DNA of 27,404 nt from a virus. The stretch lies in the IMG/VR virus record IMGVR_UViG_3300046314_000021, positions 1 to 27,404 of that record. The stretch is one strand, 5' to 3'. Within the stretch, counting starts at the first letter, position 1. Each line of letters starts with the position of its first letter. Below, in pieces: positions 4,961 through 25,782 of this stretch. A model generated the notes under the pieces. It saw only the letters and a list, made by a program, of their open reading frames with translations. It did not search any database and was not told the origin of the DNA. The position numbers were made by a program, and so were the translations under genes.

Positions 4961-5286
4961 AGATTCTTTACTCCAACAGTTGCAACCTCTTTATAGCCGT
5001 GTGATTTAATCCAGCCTTTTCTACCGCAGTAGGCAATAAGCTCAAATCCGTTATTTCGGCCATAGTCTTCTGCCTGTTGAGCCAGAACGTCTATTTCCTC
5101 CATTATGCCAGCAGCTAGCCATATCTGTATGGATTTTTTACCAAACATAAAACTGCTATTTGCCACTAACACAGATTCTCCGCACTCAAACAAAATATAG
5201 TCTTGCTGCTTTACTTGTTCCCAAGGAATAGGGGCCATAGACTCATTTATTAGCGGCTCCAACAGATAGCGCCATTTGTCAATCAC
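4957..5286 (-). CDS. GNAT-fold-like small protein, T7 gp13-like position (109 aa)
   Basis: The start is GTG, overlapping the upstream TGA as GTGA. The protein has an N-terminal helical part (KWRYLLEPLINESM), a strand-rich middle (YILFECGESVLVANSS) and a C-terminal segment (ELIAYCGRKGWIKSHGYKEV). The last segment resembles the end of acetyltransferase (GNAT) folds, where G-x-x-G precedes a helix and a final strand. T7-like phages have a small GNAT-like protein (gp13) in the same place, between the tail tube genes and the internal virion proteins. I infer a structural or assembly role of that type. A clear acetyl-CoA binding signature (Q/R-x-x-G-x-G/A) is not evident, so enzyme activity is doubtful. 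Confidence 0.45.
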   Translation of the reverse strand: MIDKWRYLLEPLINESMAPIPWEQVKQQDYILFECGESVLVANSSFMFGKKSIQIWLAAGIMEEIDVLAQQAEDYGRNNGFELIAYCGRKGWIKSHGYKEVATVGVKNL

Positions 5287-8277: not shown

Positions 8278-8994
8278 TTAGAGAATCTGGCCCTGTGCGC
8301 ATGGGTTGTTGATAACCCCAGCGCCGTAGCCAGTGTAAGTACCCGTGAGGGTAATAGAACCGGATGCAGTCGCGTTTTTATCGCCAGTGGTTCCGATAGC
8401 AGAGCCAGTGTAGATAGTGCGTCCATCGGGATCGAGAGCAGCTACCACGGTACTAGCGGGGATGCCAGTGCCGGACAATGCCATGCCGAGGAAGAAACCA
8501 TCGTAACCGGATGCACAGACAACCTTGCCAGAACCCAGCACAGTCGCAGCAGTAACGGTTTTTGTACCGGTTGCAGCGATGCGGTTGCGAGTGCCTAGCA
8601 GTTGTTTGCCAGCGGCTAAAGTTCCAGCGATACCAGCCGCTGCCACTGCTACGGCTGTATCAGCCGCAACGGTTGCATTGGTCTTGTACACTGCCAAACC
8701 TTCGGTTTGAACCCAGCCGTAAGAGCCAGAGGCAGTAGGAGCCATTGCCACGCCAAAGGCGAAACCTTGACCAGCGGTAGATGGCAACAGAGCGCCTTCA
8801 TAGAGTTCAGACCACATTACCAGCGAACCCTTGAGGATAGCTGCAGCTGATTTGATGTAGACAAACTTGCCCGTTCCCCAATAGGGATCCACGGCGGTAA
8901 CGGTCATGCCGAGGGGGTGACGTTGCACGGTGTCAGGGGCGAACCAGTCATTGAATGGTTGAGTGCCCAGAGTGGGGGAAATTGCTGAAAACAT
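8278..8994 (-). CDS. Putative capsid decoration/stabilising protein (238 aa)
   Basis: The protein opens FSAISPTLGTQPFNDWFAPD and GMTVTAVDPYWGTGKFVYIK, then shows a barrel-like part (ILKGSLVMWSELYEGALLP, GFAFGVAMAPTASGSYGWVQ). After that come Ala/Gly/Thr-rich strands, and it ends with a repetitive GTKTVTAATVLGSGKVVC-type region. Many phages encode a protein of this style, usually called decoration or head-stabilising, immediately after the major capsid gene. It is exactly placed for that role: capsid gene upstream with a 45-base gap, terminator downstream. The ribosome site AAAGGA is good. No known decoration motif is diagnostic, so the function is inferred from position. Confidence 0.55.
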   Translation of the reverse strand: MFSAISPTLGTQPFNDWFAPDTVQRHPLGMTVTAVDPYWGTGKFVYIKSAAAILKGSLVMWSELYEGALLPSTAGQGFAFGVAMAPTASGSYGWVQTEGLAVYKTNATVAADTAVAVAAAGIAGTLAAGKQLLGTRNRIAATGTKTVTAATVLGSGKVVCASGYDGFFLGMALSGTGIPASTVVAALDPDGRTIYTGSAIGTTGDKNATASGSITLTGTYTGYGAGVINNPCAQGQIL

Positions 8995-9013
8995 TTTGAT
9001 TCCTTTAAGTTAT

Positions 9014-9033
9014 GGGCCAGGTTCCCCCGGCCC
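9014..9033 (-). other. GC-rich RNA hairpin between capsid and decoration genes
   Basis: On the minus strand GGGCC pairs with GGCCC around a ten-base loop that can close by two further G-C pairs. No U-run follows, so it is not a standard intrinsic terminator. It may protect the 3' end of the capsid message or act as a processing site. It lies 20 bases upstream of the decoration gene start. Confidence 0.45.
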
Positions 9034-9039
9034 TATAAA

Positions 9040-10017
9040 TTACGCCTTACCAACGCCCTGGCGAGCGCGGTTAGAACATACCAAGTTACCTTGGAACAAC
9101 ACTGGAATAACCAATGCGTCTTGATTGACAGAACGCAGCTCTGGCATGATTTCCATATTTGCATCTTGATGAACAACCAACTCTAGGAAGTCGGAATTCA
9201 AGAAGTACATATGGTTAGCAGGGATGCCGGATGCGCTTGAATCAAAGAACACGTCAGCGGTCTTGTACTTCATGCTGATCATGCCGCCTTTACCTTCGTC
9301 AGCAGGAGCGTAACGCTTCAAAGACGATTGCGAGGCTTCATAGAAGCTGAAATAGTTCGAGTCCATAACGATCAAGTCAGGCGTATCGTTGCCACGGGTA
9401 CATTGCAGCCACAAAGGCAGCATGATGCCAGCTTCGATAGTTGCAGCGGAAACGGTGACAGCCTGAGTAGCAGCGCTGATTACTTGGTTTTGCCAGAATG
9501 GGAAGTTGGTGGAGTTGATACCACCCACAGTACCAGTGCCAAGGTCAGAAACCAATGCTTGAATGCCGTTCATCTGGTTAGATGCTGTACCGTCAGAGTA
9601 CAAGTCACCAGACAAGCCGTTAGCCATCGAACGCTGGGCATTTTTCAGCTTTGTTTTCACAAAGTTGATGATGCGATTGGAGCCGCTGTTAGTGCGAATT
9701 TCCAAACCGGAAGCGGCCACGTTAACAGCAACTTGTCGCCATGCATATTCAGCGGCAGAGATAACGTCAACAGCACCGACGTTCAAAACGTCAAAGCCGG
9801 AGTAACGTTGGTATGTGCTGTTAGCTGCGTAGTCCAAAGGCGTGACGATAGACAAGCCACCATCTTCCAAGCGGATACGACCTTTCTCTGTAATACGGCG
9901 ATACAGTGCATTGTGGTTGGAAACGTTATCGGCAACTTCTTTTTTGTGGTTGCGATAAGTAGTGCTCACCAGTTCGGTGAAGGTATTGAAAAGGGTGCTT
10001 TGACCGGGAGAGGCCAT
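9040..10017 (-). CDS. Major capsid protein (325 aa)
   Basis: The sequence has the features of an HK97-fold shell protein of moderate length. There is a helical N-terminal arm (LFNTFTELVSTTYRNHKKEV), a region of the E-loop type (GLSIVTPLDYAANSTYQRYS), and a long spine helix (NRIINFVKTKLKNAQRSMAN). Strand-rich P and A domains end with VIPVLFQGNLVCSNRARQGV, a common close for this family. It follows the scaffold gene by 17 bases and has a strong AGGAG site. No protease gene is seen next to it. The scaffold-capsid-decoration order supports the call strongly. Confidence 0.85.
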   Translation of the reverse strand: MASPGQSTLFNTFTELVSTTYRNHKKEVADNVSNHNALYRRITEKGRIRLEDGGLSIVTPLDYAANSTYQRYSGFDVLNVGAVDVISAAEYAWRQVAVNVAASGLEIRTNSGSNRIINFVKTKLKNAQRSMANGLSGDLYSDGTASNQMNGIQALVSDLGTGTVGGINSTNFPFWQNQVISAATQAVTVSAATIEAGIMLPLWLQCTRGNDTPDLIVMDSNYFSFYEASQSSLKRYAPADEGKGGMISMKYKTADVFFDSSASGIPANHMYFLNSDFLELVVHQDANMEIMPELRSVNQDALVIPVLFQGNLVCSNRARQGVGKA

Positions 10018-21256: not shown

Positions 21257-21442
21257 TTACTTGGCGGATAAGTTGGCTTCTGTCCATCCTGCCATCCATG
21301 CCTTCATCTCTTTTGATGTGCGCTTGTCTCCAATCTCGCGGCCTGCAATCATTGCCATCATGTTGCTATCTAAGCAAGGTGCGCACTTGATGCCATTAGC
21401 AAAGGCGATTGCTCCGAATGTTTTTGCTGCTTGAGTGTTCAT
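21257..21442 (-). CDS. Small phage protein (61 aa)
   Basis: The sequence (NTQAAKTFGAIAFANGIKCA, then PCLDSNMMAMIAGREIGD and AWMAGWTEANLSAK) is of a type often found in phage accessory regions, with a C-x-x-C pair and a C-terminal helix. Function unknown. A good AAGGA site precedes the ATG. It is the first gene after the promoter/operator region at 21478-21518. Confidence 0.65.
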   Translation of the reverse strand: MNTQAAKTFGAIAFANGIKCAPCLDSNMMAMIAGREIGDKRTSKEMKAWMAGWTEANLSAK

Positions 21443-21477: not shown

Positions 21478-21518
21478 ATTATAAAGCAATTTACATCATT
21501 GTGTAAACTATTTTTACA
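21478..21518 (-). promoter_or_regulatory. Promoter A with overlapping TGTAAA/TTTACA operator
   Basis: On the minus strand TTTACA (21507-21502) and TATAAT (21483-21478) are separated by 18 bases, a near-consensus sigma-70 promoter for the 61-aa gene and those following through to terS. Three half-sites (TTTACA at 21490, TGTAAA at 21502, TTTACA at 21513 on the plus strand) form overlapping palindromes with 6- and 5-base spacers that cover the -35 and spacer. This suggests control by a dimeric repressor. Confidence 0.65.
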
Positions 21519-21539
21519 TTTATTTAGAAAATTTCTTGT

Positions 21540-21698
21540 TCAGGACTTGGTGGTCATCGACCGGATCAGATCGGCAGCGTCATACAAGCCCAGCTTGTTT
21601 GCGAAGGCATGCAGATCGCGCAATTGGTCGGTAGTACCGTCCTGGCGTTGCGGCTGTTGCGTCAGCTTGGCCAACTCGACTTTTAGGTTTTCAGGCAT
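21540..21698 (-). CDS. Small phage accessory protein (52 aa)
   Basis: It reads MPENLKVELAKLTQQPQRQD, with a helical second half (QLRDLHAFANKLGLYDAADL, then IRSMTTKS). The QLRDLHAFANKLGLYDAAD stretch is of a type found in small phage proteins near nin-like genes. No clear ribosome site is seen; a six-codon mini-frame (MKTPNA, ATG at 21711) overlaps the start and could feed it by reinitiation. It is expressed from the promoter near 21746-21775. GC content is visibly higher than in the AT-rich gaps flanking it. Function unknown. Confidence 0.6.
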   Translation of the reverse strand: MPENLKVELAKLTQQPQRQDGTTDQLRDLHAFANKLGLYDAADLIRSMTTKS

Positions 21699-21745
21699 TG
21701 GGTGTTTTCATTTTGAAGGTTTTCGTTGTTTGTTGCGTTGAATGA

Positions 21746-21775
21746 ATTGTAAACCAATTTACAGCACTACGCCAA
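21746..21775 (-). promoter_or_regulatory. Promoter B with TGTAAA-N4-TTTACA operator
   Basis: On the minus strand TTGGCG (21775-21770) and TACAAT (21751-21746) are 18 bases apart. A perfect 16-bp operator-like palindrome, TGTAAA-CCAA-TTTACA on the plus strand at 21748-21763, overlaps the -10 box and the spacer. It would control the 52-aa gene. An AT-rich segment lies just upstream. Confidence 0.6.
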
Positions 21776-21796
21776 CTATTTGCAAAATATTTTCAA

Positions 21797-22003
21797 TTAT
21801 TCTTTGCGTGCGCTGTTCTTTGCGTCCATCTCTTGCATCAGTCGCTTGAGATAGATTGACAGGTCTAGTGCTTCCTCAAAAGCGTGTTGCAACCATTGGC
21901 GCTCAGTTAGCGGGTTGCCTGCTACTGTGCGACCATATTTTTTAAGGCCCAATTGCTGGCGATCCAGAATGTTTTTGCAGACTTCCTGCTCTGTGTCTTT
22001 CAT
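21797..22003 (-). CDS. Small MazG-like helical phage protein (68 aa)
   Basis: The segment LGLKKYGRTVAGNPLTERQW, followed by LQHAFEEALDLSIYLKRLM, is a well-known phage pattern ('KYG.t...NPl....WL.HA.EE.LD...YL.R'). Its E-E-x-x-D spacing and helical plan recall one half of the MazG-type NTP pyrophosphohydrolase fold. Activity is unproven and the protein is short, so it may only bind nucleotides or act structurally. Its ATG overlaps the ninG stop as ATGA. Probably part of the NinB-NinG transcript from the promoter near 23190. Confidence 0.65.
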   Translation of the reverse strand: MKDTEQEVCKNILDRQQLGLKKYGRTVAGNPLTERQWLQHAFEEALDLSIYLKRLMQEMDAKNSARKE

Positions 22004-22530
22004 GCTTGTAGCTCCTTTAGCTTTCGTTTGTAGGTTTCTTTGATCTCTCTTAGGTCGTCAATACTGTAATGCTTTGCAGTGTGTGGGCCTTCTAGCCATT
22101 CGACGCGCTCTTGGCCTATCAGCTTCACCAAGTTGACGCGATATAAAGCCACGTTACCCGATAAGTGCGTGTTGCATGGTGCGCACTGTTTGTGGCAGTT
22201 ATCTGGCTCATATGCAAGCTCAGGACGTGCGCCACGGCTTAGATAATGCCCTGCATGCCATTGCCCCGTGTGGTGACGTTGGCAGCTTATGCACGGCTTG
22301 TCGGCGTCTCTAGCCCTTACCCATGCGTTAAATGCTGTCTGAGCCTCCCTGGCCCAGTCTGCGCGGCTCTTAATCGCCACCTTCCGCGCCTTTACGGTCT
22401 CGCGCTCTTGCTTCTTTGCAGCCTTCACCAGCCTACTAGCGCACATTGCCGAACACACGCGCTGCATTGGTCGCAGCGGGTAAAAGCTAATGCCGCATTG
22501 CTTGCAGTCTTTTGGGCGGGAAACTGTCAC
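22000..22530 (-). CDS. ninG: NinG/Rap-like recombination protein (176 aa)
   Basis: The start chosen is GTG at 22530. It overlaps the ninB stop as GTGA and has GGGAG eight bases upstream, and the resulting N-terminus (MTVSRPKDCKQCG) matches NinG proteins. An ATG-like extension inside ninB lacks this support. A zinc ribbon (C9, C12, C26, C30) is followed by a basic helix (KKQERETVKARKVAIKSRAD). A second, HNH-like metal site has C80, C83, H92, H95, C112, C116 and C119, with the core WHAGHYLSRG. NinG (Rap) of lambda resolves branched recombination intermediates, and the same role is expected here. It is coupled to ninB. Confidence 0.85.
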   Translation of the reverse strand: MTVSRPKDCKQCGISFYPLRPMQRVCSAMCASRLVKAAKKQERETVKARKVAIKSRADWAREAQTAFNAWVRARDADKPCISCQRHHTGQWHAGHYLSRGARPELAYEPDNCHKQCAPCNTHLSGNVALYRVNLVKLIGQERVEWLEGPHTAKHYSIDDLREIKETYKRKLKELQA

Positions 22531-22958
22531 AGGTCGCGCTCCCATGCTGCGAACTTTACGCCCTGCTCTGTTGACCATGCCAGTACAAATTCAATCAAGT
22601 CTGCACATTCTGCTCGGCTTAGCTTGCTTGTCTTGCGAAACACCACATCTATGCCATGCCCGTCGATTGCAGGAAGTATCTCCACTTGCTGGCCTGTAGC
22701 TCGTAACCAAGCCGCTGTCATTAGTCTTTTCCATGTTTCAGCGTCGCGCTTTTGGCCTGCCCATTCAATCTGATTGCTTATCTGAGTTAGCAGGGAGTGC
22801 AGTAGCGCGTTTTCCTTGAGGCTGCGTGTCTCTGGGCGCACTTCCAACGTAAATCGCTGATCTGCTTGCAACACGGCTGCAAGGAACGGGTATAGCTGCG
22901 ATTGCAATGCTGCTCTCGCTTGCTGGCGGTTACTTAGTTGGATTGTGAGCGATTGCAT
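22527..22958 (-). CDS. ninB: NinB-like recombination protein (143 aa)
   Basis: The arrangement is typical of lambda NinB: LEVRPETRSLKENALLHSLL near residue 40, then IEWAGQKRDAETWKRLMTAA with WLRATGQ, and near the end KLSRAECADLIEFVLAWSTE followed by QGVKFAAWE. NinB (Orf) binds single-stranded DNA and SSB and helps load recombinases. Length is close to that of lambda Orf. The upstream ribosome site is weak. It precedes ninG with a GTGA overlap, the same order as in the lambda nin region. Confidence 0.85.
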   Translation of the reverse strand: MQSLTIQLSNRQQARAALQSQLYPFLAAVLQADQRFTLEVRPETRSLKENALLHSLLTQISNQIEWAGQKRDAETWKRLMTAAWLRATGQQVEILPAIDGHGIDVVFRKTSKLSRAECADLIEFVLAWSTEQGVKFAAWERDL

Positions 22959-22963
22959 TGTTA

Positions 22964-23155
22964 TTAACCCAAGGCCGCAAGCAATTCATCATCGCTCAGT
23001 TGATTTTCACCAACAAATTTCTCTTCGCTTGAAACTTCTTTTTCGAGTTGCTTCACCCACACTGTGCGCAAGTCACGTTCAGATTGAGTTTGTGCATTAC
23101 CAAGGCGGATGCGCTCGTTTGACAGATTCATCAGCAGTGCGTTTAAGTGTGTCAT
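22964..23155 (-). CDS. Small helical protein upstream of ninB (63 aa)
   Basis: It reads THLNALLMNLSNERIRLGNA and continues with QTQSERDLRTVWVKQLEKEV, ending LSDDELLAALG. It is mostly helix with an acidic C-terminus. AAGGA lies seven bases before the ATG. It is the first gene after the promoter at 23182-23211, so it may be the first product of the nin-type operon. Similar short proteins accompany early phage genes, but no function is known. Confidence 0.65.
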   Translation of the reverse strand: MTHLNALLMNLSNERIRLGNAQTQSERDLRTVWVKQLEKEVSSEEKFVGENQLSDDELLAALG

Positions 23156-23181
23156 GTTGGTTTCCTTGTTTGGTGTGCTTG

Positions 23182-23211
23182 ATTGTAATCTATTTTACCA
23201 ACATTTTGCAA
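23182..23211 (-). promoter_or_regulatory. Promoter C with TGTAAT-N4-TTTACC operator
   Basis: On the minus strand TTGCAA (23211-23206) and TACAAT (23187-23182) are 18 bases apart. An imperfect copy of the palindrome found at promoters A and B (plus strand TGTAAT-CTAT-TTTACC, 23184-23199) overlaps the -10 and spacer. It would drive the 63-aa gene, ninB, ninG and the 68-aa gene. The upstream gene ends at 23212, so this gap is 56 bases in total. Confidence 0.55.
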
Positions 23212-23355
23212 TTATTTTTCAATCTTCCAGTTTATCCAATGCAGCGCCTCGCAGTATCGCTTGAATGCCCAAATTGCATATGCTCTGTCGTGCTTTGCCA
23301 TGTTTGCACAGTGGGCCACTATGCGAACTTTCAGGGCTTCGTCGGCTTCGGTCAT
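23212..23355 (-). CDS. Small protein at end of replication operon (47 aa)
   Basis: The ATG overlaps the stop of the winged-helix gene as ATGA. The protein reads MTEADEALKVRIVAHCANMA and ends YCEALHWINWKIEK. It is short and helical, with several Trp and aromatic residues at the C-terminus. Too short to assign. Its coupling to the operon makes it a credible gene. It is the last gene before promoter C. Confidence 0.55.
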   Translation of the reverse strand: MTEADEALKVRIVAHCANMAKHDRAYAIWAFKRYCEALHWINWKIEK

Positions 23356-23519
23356 AGGCTGTAACGTCCCCACCTTTGACGCTTGATTGCTCCAATATCC
23401 ACTAGCTCGGCTAACACCTTGTAAGTTGACTGGTACGGCCAGCCCGTTATTGCCACAAACTCAGCCAACATTAGCGGCCCATGCTCCAACAACTTCAATG
23501 CTGCGTATTGTCGGGTCAT
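23352..23519 (-). CDS. Small winged-helix DNA-binding protein (55 aa)
   Basis: The start is the ATG at 23519, overlapping the helicase loader stop as ATGA; a longer in-frame extension was not favoured. The sequence QYAALKLLEHGPLMLAEFVA followed by ITGWPYQSTYKVLAELVDIG and AIKRQRWGRY has the helix-turn-helix plus wing pattern of winged-helix regulators. The recognition helix is likely near STYKVLAELV. It is far smaller than most phage repressors. A role in replication control or in regulating this operon is possible. Confidence 0.65.
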   Translation of the reverse strand: MTRQYAALKLLEHGPLMLAEFVAITGWPYQSTYKVLAELVDIGAIKRQRWGRYSL

Positions 23520-24262
23520 TTTCTTTGACTCTCCCAATTGAACGAAACCATTTTCCCGCCGCCCTCACGCATTCGATCAAGAATACGATCACCGAAGTAT
23601 TCCTTCAATGCTCCCATGTCAAGGTTTGTGATAACGATGGTTGGATTCATGTTTTCATACCTACGGTTCAGCACTTCAAACATCAGTGTCTTATTGAACT
23701 CTGTCCCGTAATCCATCCCAGCCTCATCCAAAATCAACAGTTCAACGTGCGAAAAATTGTCGATCATTTCAGATTCTGTCTCTTTTGATTCTTTGGCAAA
23801 ACACTCCTTTATTCTTCGCAGCAAACCCGTGACCGTGTAAAACTTAGCATACGATCCTTGCTCAATCAGTTCGTTAGCGATTGCGCAGGCTAAATGGGTT
23901 TTCCCTGTCCCTGCTTTGCCTGAGAAAATTAAACAGCGCCCATCGGCGTTTGCTTGCGTCCAATCGGCTGTATAGGCCTTTGCAACTGTCAGCGCTTTCT
24001 CTTGACCTTCGTTTGTAATCCTGAAGTTGTCAAAAGAGCACTTGGCGAATCTTGGTGGAATTTTGCTATTTGCGCGTGCGCGTTCAATGGTTGTTTTTAA
24101 TTCCTCAGCTTTTCTAGCAGCACTTCTTTGTGCTTTCATGTCTTCAAAATCTTTAGTGCAACTTTGGCAACTACTGTAAAAAGTACGCCCAAGGGTGGAC
24201 GTGGCCATGGCTTGAAATTCTCCATGTATTTTGCAAATCTTAGTTTCAAAAACTTCCGTCAT
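23516..24262 (-). CDS. DnaC-like helicase loader, AAA+ ATPase (248 aa)
   Basis: Two ATG codons lie in tandem at 24265 and 24262. AAGGAG is three bases from the first and six from the second, so I chose the second. Positions below count from the first. A putative zinc site (C11, H14, C33, C36) is followed by a charged helix. The ATPase core has Walker A GKAGTGKT (116-123), Walker B LLILDEAG (176-183), sensor I VITN (211-214) and arginines near 227-231. It should load the replicative helicase at the phage origin, as DnaC and lambda P do. It follows the initiator gene, as in O-P pairs. Confidence 0.85.
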   Translation of the reverse strand: MTEVFETKICKIHGEFQAMATSTLGRTFYSSCQSCTKDFEDMKAQRSAARKAEELKTTIERARANSKIPPRFAKCSFDNFRITNEGQEKALTVAKAYTADWTQANADGRCLIFSGKAGTGKTHLACAIANELIEQGSYAKFYTVTGLLRRIKECFAKESKETESEMIDNFSHVELLILDEAGMDYGTEFNKTLMFEVLNRRYENMNPTIVITNLDMGALKEYFGDRILDRMREGGGKMVSFNWESQRK

Positions 24263-25055
24263 CATTAACTCCTTGTGTGTAGTTCATTGCTGAAATATCG
24301 TGATACGTGCGCTTCGCTTGGGTTTTGATATCGGTTCTGTAATTACTCCTGCACCAGTTGCGCCATGTTGCCTGCCAATCTAGCTTGACTCCTTTTTGTC
24401 CAGGCTGTGAATTCCAGTAATCACGAAACTTGCTTGCCTCTTCCAATGTGTTGGATATGCCTTGATCAATAGCAAATTGAAAGTCAGGTTCAAAGTCTTG
24501 AGGCAAGCGGGAACCGCGCGCTGTCTTTGTCTTCTCTATCTTTGGTAACGGTAACGGTAACGGTATTGGAGACGGAGACGGAGACGGAGACGGAGACGGG
24601 GCATCCGCCTCGCATCCGCCTCGCATGCGGTCCGTGTGCGGTTCGGATGCGCCTCGCATGCGGTCCGCATAATCTGGCATGCGGTTCGCAGCTTCATTGC
24701 GTCCATATCGCTTGCATAAAGCTGCAAATCGTGACGCTTCGGACCTATCCTTTGCACCAGCCGCCCACGGGTTATGCTCTGACCAATCGTGAATATAAAG
24801 CTGGTTTTCCTCGCCATCCAAAAAACCAACATCTACCATTGCAGAGACAAATGCACCATGTTCGCCAGTCCAATCGACGGAAAGTTCTATATCCTCGTTT
24901 GACAGTCCGGACAAGTCGCCGTCGCTTCGATTAGCCGCGGACCATATAAACAGGTAGATGCATGCCAATGGACCAGCATGCCCCAATCGCCTGAGTAGCT
25001 TCTTGGTCTTTGGGTGACCAGGTAGCCCGGTTGATATTCGAGCATCCTTGGTCAT
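24246..25055 (-). CDS. Phage replication initiator, O-like (269 aa)
   Basis: The ATG at 25055 overlaps the antirepressor stop as ATGA and gives the usual family opening, MTKDARISTGLPGHPKTKKL. An earlier ATG at 25109 would overlap the upstream gene by 58 bases and has no ribosome site. Residues 1-100 are a winged-helix-like domain of phage replication proteins (SNEDIELSVDWTGEHGAFVS). Residues about 125-175 form a low-complexity linker (repeated DRMRG, then Ser-Pro and Leu-Pro repeats). The C-terminal domain has FRDYWNSQPGQKGVKLDWQA and TWRNWCRSNY, typical of primosomal replication proteins. The linker DNA contains phased repeats. It pairs with the downstream helicase loader. Confidence 0.75.
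   Translation of the reverse strand: MTKDARISTGLPGHPKTKKLLRRLGHAGPLACIYLFIWSAANRSDGDLSGLSNEDIELSVDWTGEHGAFVSAMVDVGFLDGEENQLYIHDWSEHNPWAAGAKDRSEASRFAALCKRYGRNEAANRMPDYADRMRGASEPHTDRMRGGCEADAPSPSPSPSPSPIPLPLPLPKIEKTKTARGSRLPQDFEPDFQFAIDQGISNTLEEASKFRDYWNSQPGQKGVKLDWQATWRNWCRSNYRTDIKTQAKRTYHDISAMNYTQGVNDDGSF
24544..24597. repeat. Hexanucleotide tandem repeats in the initiator gene
   Basis: On the plus strand GGTAAC occurs three times in a row (24544-24561) with a fourth degenerate copy, followed by GGAGAC five times (24568-24597). They encode the Leu-Pro and Ser-Pro repeats of the linker. Because units are six bases long, gain or loss keeps the reading frame and changes linker length by two residues per unit. 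Confidence 0.9.
24618..24690. repeat. Phased direct repeats, candidate replication origin iterons
   Basis: A 17-base sequence GCCTCGCATGCGGTCCG occurs identically at 24618 and 24651, exactly 33 bases apart. Its core TGCGGT(C/T)CG occurs four times (core starts 24626, 24637, 24659, 24680), with spacings of 11, 22 and 21 bases, close to whole helical turns. They lie within the linker-encoding part of the initiator gene, as the lambda iterons lie within gene O. The origin role is inference. Confidence 0.5.
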
Positions 25056-25720
25056 TTTGCTGTCCACAGCTTCGTTATTTCTATTTGACCCAGCGGTGTA
25101 ATCAGACATTGATGGAATTCGTGCCCGTTTTTTACGTCAGAAACAACGTTAAACCACTCAGAATAGCCAGCTTTAGGCAAATCAGCATTAAGCCACTTCA
25201 CGCCGCTTTCACGCAAAAAATGATTTAGTTTGATGGCCGTAGTGCCTAGTTGTTTTGCAATGAGCGTAGTGCTTACGTCTTGTTTGCGGTCTGCCAATAT
25301 TTCATAGATGGCAACTTTAGGTGCTTGCTCAAGCAATAGCGCGTCTTTGGCTTCTATCTCTTCGATAAGCAATACGTTTTCTTTTGCTAGCTCTAAGCGT
25401 GTCTTTGGTATTGGCGCAATGGCTGGTGCTTGCTTGGCTTCTAGCTCTTGCCAGCGGTCTACCAGTCGTGCCGTGAACTCGGGTGAGAGTTGGGCAACAA
25501 CCACGTAACTGTCACGCTTGGAAAGTCGGTATACCATCACATCGCGAACCCGGCCCATACTGTCAGTTTCCGGTTCATTCCCCATTGGGGGTTGAACAAT
25601 CACGCCACGCTCTACCAATCGCTCAATCGACTGCTTTACCTTATCGTGACGCGATTCAACCAAATCTGCTATCTCACGGCTCGACATCTTTTGCGAGCTG
25701 TCCATTGTTGCTATCTGCAT
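25052..25720 (-). CDS. Rha/KilAC-domain antirepressor-like regulator (222 aa)
   Basis: The start chosen is the ATG at 25720, which has GGAG eight bases upstream. A TTG farther up lies inside a terminator and is rejected. Residues about 1-95 match the Rha-type phage regulatory domain (MSSREIADLVESRHDKVKQS, then IERLVERGV and VMVYRLSKRDSYVVVAQLSP). Residues about 125-222 match the KilAC (Ant) domain (APKVAIYEILADRKQDVSTT, IAKQLGT, LNHFLRESGVKWLN, ITPLGQIEITKLW). Such fusions act as antirepressors or early regulators, binding DNA or a repressor. It begins the coupled replication operon, directly after a strong terminator. Confidence 0.85.
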   Translation of the reverse strand: MQIATMDSSQKMSSREIADLVESRHDKVKQSIERLVERGVIVQPPMGNEPETDSMGRVRDVMVYRLSKRDSYVVVAQLSPEFTARLVDRWQELEAKQAPAIAPIPKTRLELAKENVLLIEEIEAKDALLLEQAPKVAIYEILADRKQDVSTTLIAKQLGTTAIKLNHFLRESGVKWLNADLPKAGYSEWFNVVSDVKNGHEFHQCLITPLGQIEITKLWTAK

Positions 25721-25732
25721 TTTCGTTACTCC

Positions 25733-25782
25733 AAAAAAAACCGCCTGCAACCCCGTGGAATCAGCACGGAACTACAGGCGGT
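25733..25782 (-). terminator. Strong intrinsic terminator before the antirepressor
   Basis: On the minus strand ACCGCCTG pairs with CAGGCGGT, and inner CCGTG pairs with CACGG, giving a long two-part stem followed by eight T residues. GGAG of the next gene begins right after the T-run. Transcripts from the dUTPase gene should largely stop here unless antiterminated. Confidence 0.9.

Follow-up and report, generated by a model that had tools for sequence, protein, structure and literature searches.

Promoters and palindromic sites in the window

The window, as we call the whole stretch of DNA analysed here, corresponds to a 27,404-base virus record of IMG/VR, the main genes of which lie on the minus strand, as do all genes, promoters and sites of the window whose coordinates are written with two dots below. 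Read from its right end, it carries genes for a methylase, a dUTPase, a Rha/KilAC antirepressor (25052..25750), a replication initiator, a DnaC-like loader and small proteins, followed by NinB, NinG, further small genes and then the terminase large subunit and the portal. A winged-helix-like protein of 61 aa (55 aa from the first ATG) is encoded at 23352..23537. A strong terminator-like hairpin (18 pairs and a T run, 25740-25782, minus strand) straddles the end of the intergenic region that separates the dUTPase gene from that of Rha. Also, the replication-initiator gene (24246-25109) contains iteron-like repeats with a spacing of about 11 bp (24599-24690), comparable to the lambda origin within gene O.

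Three sigma-70-like promoters with 18-base spacers are found at the coordinates at which a first-pass annotation had placed them, all on the minus strand; they are presumed to be early promoters, as they had been labelled there. Promoter C (TTGCAA-18-TACAAT, 23182..23211) is followed by a 63-aa gene (22964..23155) that is replaced or absent in most relatives, and then by the genes for the NinB/Orf recombination mediator (22527..22958) and the NinG/Rap endonuclease (22000..22578). Promoter B (TTGGCG-18-TACAAT, 21746..21775) precedes a 52-aa gene (21540..21698), and promoter A (TTTACA-18-TATAAT, 21478..21507) a 61-aa gene of family phrog_19203 (21257..21442). With 11 of 12 consensus bases, promoter A is the best consensus match and also the last operator-bearing promoter before the terminase genes.

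All three promoters carry the palindromic motif TGTAAA-N4/5-TTTACA. The putative operator at C, GGTAAAATAGATTACA (23184..23199), has two mismatches, in agreement with its earlier description as degenerate, and covers the spacer and the -10. That at B, TGTAAATTGGTTTACA (21748..21763), had been called a perfect palindrome, which holds for its half-sites and fails for its N4 centre, TTGG. Region A, for which three alternating half-sites had been proposed, contains instead two operators overlapping the promoter: a proximal N4 site, TGTAAATTGCTTTATA (21480..21495; one mismatch), over the spacer and the -10, and a distal N5 site with perfect half-sites, TGTAAAAATAGTTTACA (21502..21518), over the -35. 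The latter starts 23 bp upstream of the start of the former.

The enrichment of the motif was evaluated in the 961 bp between the genes of a curated list, against 5000 shuffles. Exact copies number two in the window gaps (shuffle mean 0.0014), a count that none of the 5000 shuffles reaches; with up to one mismatch there are three (mean 0.023; again 0 of 5000), and with up to two there are four (mean 0.28), a number attained in a single shuffle. The sharing of one motif by the three promoters is therefore borne out. Site C taken alone is non-significant, since each shuffle of the whole window yields about one site that scores equally; it is convincing because relatives retain it at the corresponding promoter and in the fixed register to the -10. 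Promoter-like matches as such are not enriched (10 found, 10.4 expected from shuffles), so that the promoter calls rest on position and conservation.

The motif had been described as lying variously on the -10, the -35 or the spacer; the A-proximal, B and C sites in fact share a single phase relative to the -10. In the direction of transcription an N4 site reads xGTAAA-NNNN-xTTAYA followed by xT, and the right half-site therefore contributes to the -10 hexamer, which is TATAAT at A and otherwise TACAAT, while the left half-site occupies the promoter spacer at every N4 site. Sites in this phase number three in the window, against 0.15 in shuffled sequence. As in lambdoid CI/Cro operators, a palindrome of about 16-17 bp lies across a sigma-70 promoter at this locus.

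Distribution of the sites in related phages

Close relatives of the window were retrieved by a NinG search of IMG/VR; a nucleotide search of isolated phages recovered short stretches only, e.g. in the NinG, DnaC-like, dUTPase and antirepressor genes. The relative G004, with a length of 37.9 kb, shares about 92% identity with the window over 21 kb; when it is aligned with G001 its two ends meet within about 26 bp, and it reads as a circular permutation of a whole genome. G004 is near-complete and two other relatives are partial.

The sites are conserved in these phages, and in the same phase. Promoters C and B keep their phased site in G001, G003 and G004 (promoter C also in L009 and L108, promoter B also in L009), and promoter A in G001 and G003, being absent from G004. 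In addition, all three relatives have phased sites at four further promoters: a rightward one before a 67-aa Cro-like gene and leftward ones before a gene of 137-139 aa, a Sak4-like annealing gene and a small gene adjoining a Gam-like gene. Phased sites thus amount to eight in G001, seven in G003 and seven in G004 (0.1-0.55 in shuffles), distributed over seven, seven and six operator-bearing promoters, respectively, since one leftward promoter in G001 and G004 has two. At several promoters of the relatives a weaker second copy starts further upstream, at a distance of 23 bp or 33-34 bp. The suggestion that one dimeric factor governs a small regulon of the phage is well supported, and in the relatives it extends to six to seven promoters.

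The small genes that follow the C, B and A promoter-operator units differ among the window, G001, G003, G004 and L118, as if small-gene cassettes had been exchanged behind fixed regulated promoters. The start codon of ninB or cro lies about 8 nt past the operator/-10 in several records (ninB/cro in G004 at 5023, L009 at 324, L108 at 6340, L110 at 9869 and L116 at 6579), and the same is seen for cro in L011 and in Comamonas-type prophages, which suggests that the mRNAs are leaderless or nearly so. An exact IMG/VR search with TGTAAATTGGTTTACAAT returned, besides close relatives, the low-GC contigs L084, L086 and L088 (GC 31-34%), which probably match by chance and were left out of the analysis.

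The operator occurs at the divergent promoters adjoining cro in G001, G003, G004, L107-L115 and the temperate relatives described below. The window does not include that region, its cut right end lying about 2 kb short of the position of cro in G001. No integrase was found in G001, G003, G004 or G013, and searches with CI queries gave no match in the window's clade. In place of a CI, this clade encodes between OL and OR a protein of 137-139 aa that falls into no known family. This protein (G001 8636-9049, in the reversed-orientation locus, and its homologues), which has no PHROG family, fills the place that cI has in temperate relatives. In L117 and L118, a 165-aa gene judged by eye to be HNH homing endonuclease-like is divergent to cro and adjoins a weak operator-like site.

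A search with the Cro-like protein recovered 53 loci in IMG/VR and three in bacterial genomes, those of Comamonas testosteroni, Variovorax and another Comamonas. In the Comamonas-type phages, TGTAAACATGTTTACAAT lies over the -10 upstream of cro and is preceded, at a distance of 24 bp, by a weaker copy. Two further copies, 34 bp apart, are located on the far side of a divergent gene for a 134-aa CI-like protein. From their position, these flanking pairs correspond to OR and OL. The CI-like protein of the temperate relatives has no match in Pfam, and its putative assignment as CI is based on its position and its similarity to a longer CI-like protein. Five whole temperate records (33-57 kb) carry phased sites only at PL and PR around cI, and an integrase is encoded in three of them (G014, G017 and G020). 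When whole records are counted at up to one mismatch, both the window's clade and the temperate group have two to three sites, a count that would hide the difference between them; the comparison was therefore run at up to two mismatches and in phase with the -10.

The Cro-like protein and other candidate binders

The likely regulator is the P22-Cro-like protein, which in the phage of the window would be encoded beyond the cut end. Of the candidate regulators, Cro is the only one present together with the sites in every record that covers the cro region. Also, its recognition helix and the operator appear to vary together. An upstream site with up to two mismatches precedes 32 of the 33 cro genes that encode a Tyr at position -2 relative to the conserved Trp and none of the 11 that do not, counts that express a strong association rather than independent trials, since the sequences are related. 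In several of these 11 loci the corresponding position is taken by a different palindrome, either TGAACTATGGTTCA or TGAATTATGATTCA.

The family profile of the Cro-like protein matches P22 Cro (1rzs) at E=3e-6, and single sequences score 14.8 bits against the Pfam P22_Cro family (PF14549), below the cut-off of 30.2. Its AlphaFold model (pLDDT 85.6) is a small all-helical HTH fold, for which Foldseek ranks P22 Cro and N15 Cro first, although even the best E-value, 0.015, is weak. Against isolated phages the protein had no match at E<=0.01. In phiKO2, Cro binds one of five similar operators (PMC4997575), and therefore Cro need not bind every site here.

The most serious alternative, though an unlikely one, is that the main binder is another phage regulator, with Cro playing a minor part. 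This could be a 72-aa HTH protein of the leftward operon, an unrecognised CI-type protein or a CI supplied by a resident prophage. The 72-aa protein is present in most of the clade and has a weak HTH_3 match (E=0.007), yet the search did not recover it from L109, in which the sites are kept. Given its placement between OL and OR, the CI of the temperate relatives very probably recognises this operator as well, but a CI is what the searches of the window's clade did not recover, and the covariation described above follows the helix of Cro, a comparison made for Cro alone.

Considerably less probable is that the motif is a mere duplicated sigma-70 promoter cassette and its palindrome no operator. 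The right half-site does double as the -10, and promoter cassettes do shift between small genes in the relatives. However, over seven promoter types the left half-site matches the -10 in its degree of conservation, even though it lies in the spacer, for which sigma-70 requires no fixed sequence; this equality is partly built in, the sites having been picked by the motif. The presence of the palindrome at OL/OR of the temperate relatives also speaks against a simple cassette.

Binding by a host regulator, through which the phage would borrow a host signal akin to TyrR boxes or BirA half-sites, is more improbable still. TGTAAA...TTTACA half-sites do resemble those of TyrR and BirA. TyrR boxes have N6 spacing and BirA sites a much longer spacer, whereas the spacing here is N4 and sometimes N5; TyrR- or BirA-like host boxes were rejected on this account. 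Moreover, the operator switches with the phage's own Cro class and adjoins cro and cI.

The least credible binders are the two candidates named in the first-pass annotation, the winged-helix and Rha/KilAC proteins, which both look DNA-binding or regulatory. They were rejected because all sites are kept in G003, which lacks Rha, and sites are kept in L012, L110 and L118, which lack the winged-helix protein.

Comparison with known systems and a proposed model of Cro control

We therefore favour, as the probable explanation from sequence comparison, that the palindromes are operators of the P22-Cro-like repressor and form a co-ordinated early shut-off regulon in a lineage without detectable CI or integrase. 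Host sigma-70 polymerase would fire the operator-bearing promoters on phage entry; the Cro dimer would then build up and occlude the -10 at the cro promoter and at the remaining ones. Where a second operator lies 23 or 33-34 bp further upstream, two dimers may be seated side by side. In this way, early and delayed-early genes, among them those for recombination, nin-type genes and small genes, would be turned off together. If promoter A also drives the late genes, simple Cro shut-off would not fit, and something like dilution of Cro over a rising genome copy number would be needed.

The elements of this layout resemble OL/OR of the lambda/P22 type in having 16-17 bp palindromes over PL and PR adjoining cro, paired copies about 24 bp apart and a P22-Cro-like protein. 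The temperate relatives have exactly this layout. The window's clade differs in that the operator occurs at six to seven promoters instead of two and that neither CI nor integrase was found. In phiKO2 and N15, 16-bp operators are located at OR and OL and are served by CB and Cro, the latter of the P22/N15 fold class (PMC4997575). The operators at OR and OL and the fold class of Cro are thus in common with the phages studied here, in which, unlike phiKO2/N15, the operators are spread and CI was not found. Also, phiKO2 Cro binds OR3 only, and CB is present (PMC4997575).

One phage regulator with many sites throughout the genome is likewise a property of the stoperators of L5-type mycobacteriophages, which are asymmetric, number 20-30 per genome, lie mostly off promoters and are bound by the lysogeny repressor (PMC6550527). 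The present sites, in contrast, are palindromic, promoter-located and probably bound by Cro, and a stoperator system of the L5 type was rejected on the grounds that they are palindromic and occur at six to seven promoters in phase with the -10.

Distributed regulator sites are also known in temperate phages such as P1 and phiC31, in which operators at many phage promoters are bound by lysogeny repressors, C1 in the case of P1. The resemblance, which was drawn by description, lies in the many promoters concerned; the difference lies in the binder, which here is probably Cro, with no CI found. What appears to be new is the putatively Cro-only, promoter-bound variant occurring beside temperate relatives with two operator-bearing promoters. 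In the literature searched we found no example of Cro-only, promoter-bound palindromes at six to seven promoters beside such relatives, and the open-access literature held no direct precedent for Cro-only virulent phages with dispersed operators, although one may exist.

As to origin, a scenario that we hold slightly more probable than its negation is that a lineage of temperate descent lost CI and integrase while Cro operators spread from two to six or seven promoters, the result being a genome-wide timer based on Cro only. Cro has usually been studied as one half of a two-promoter switch, and the finding raises the question of why apparently virulent phages retain it. Together, the two-promoter temperate relatives and the CI-less lineage with six to seven promoters form a natural series for the growth of a regulon after loss of the switch. 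Also, as the temperate CI should use the same operator, lysogens of the temperate relatives are predicted to be able to silence phages of the window's clade.
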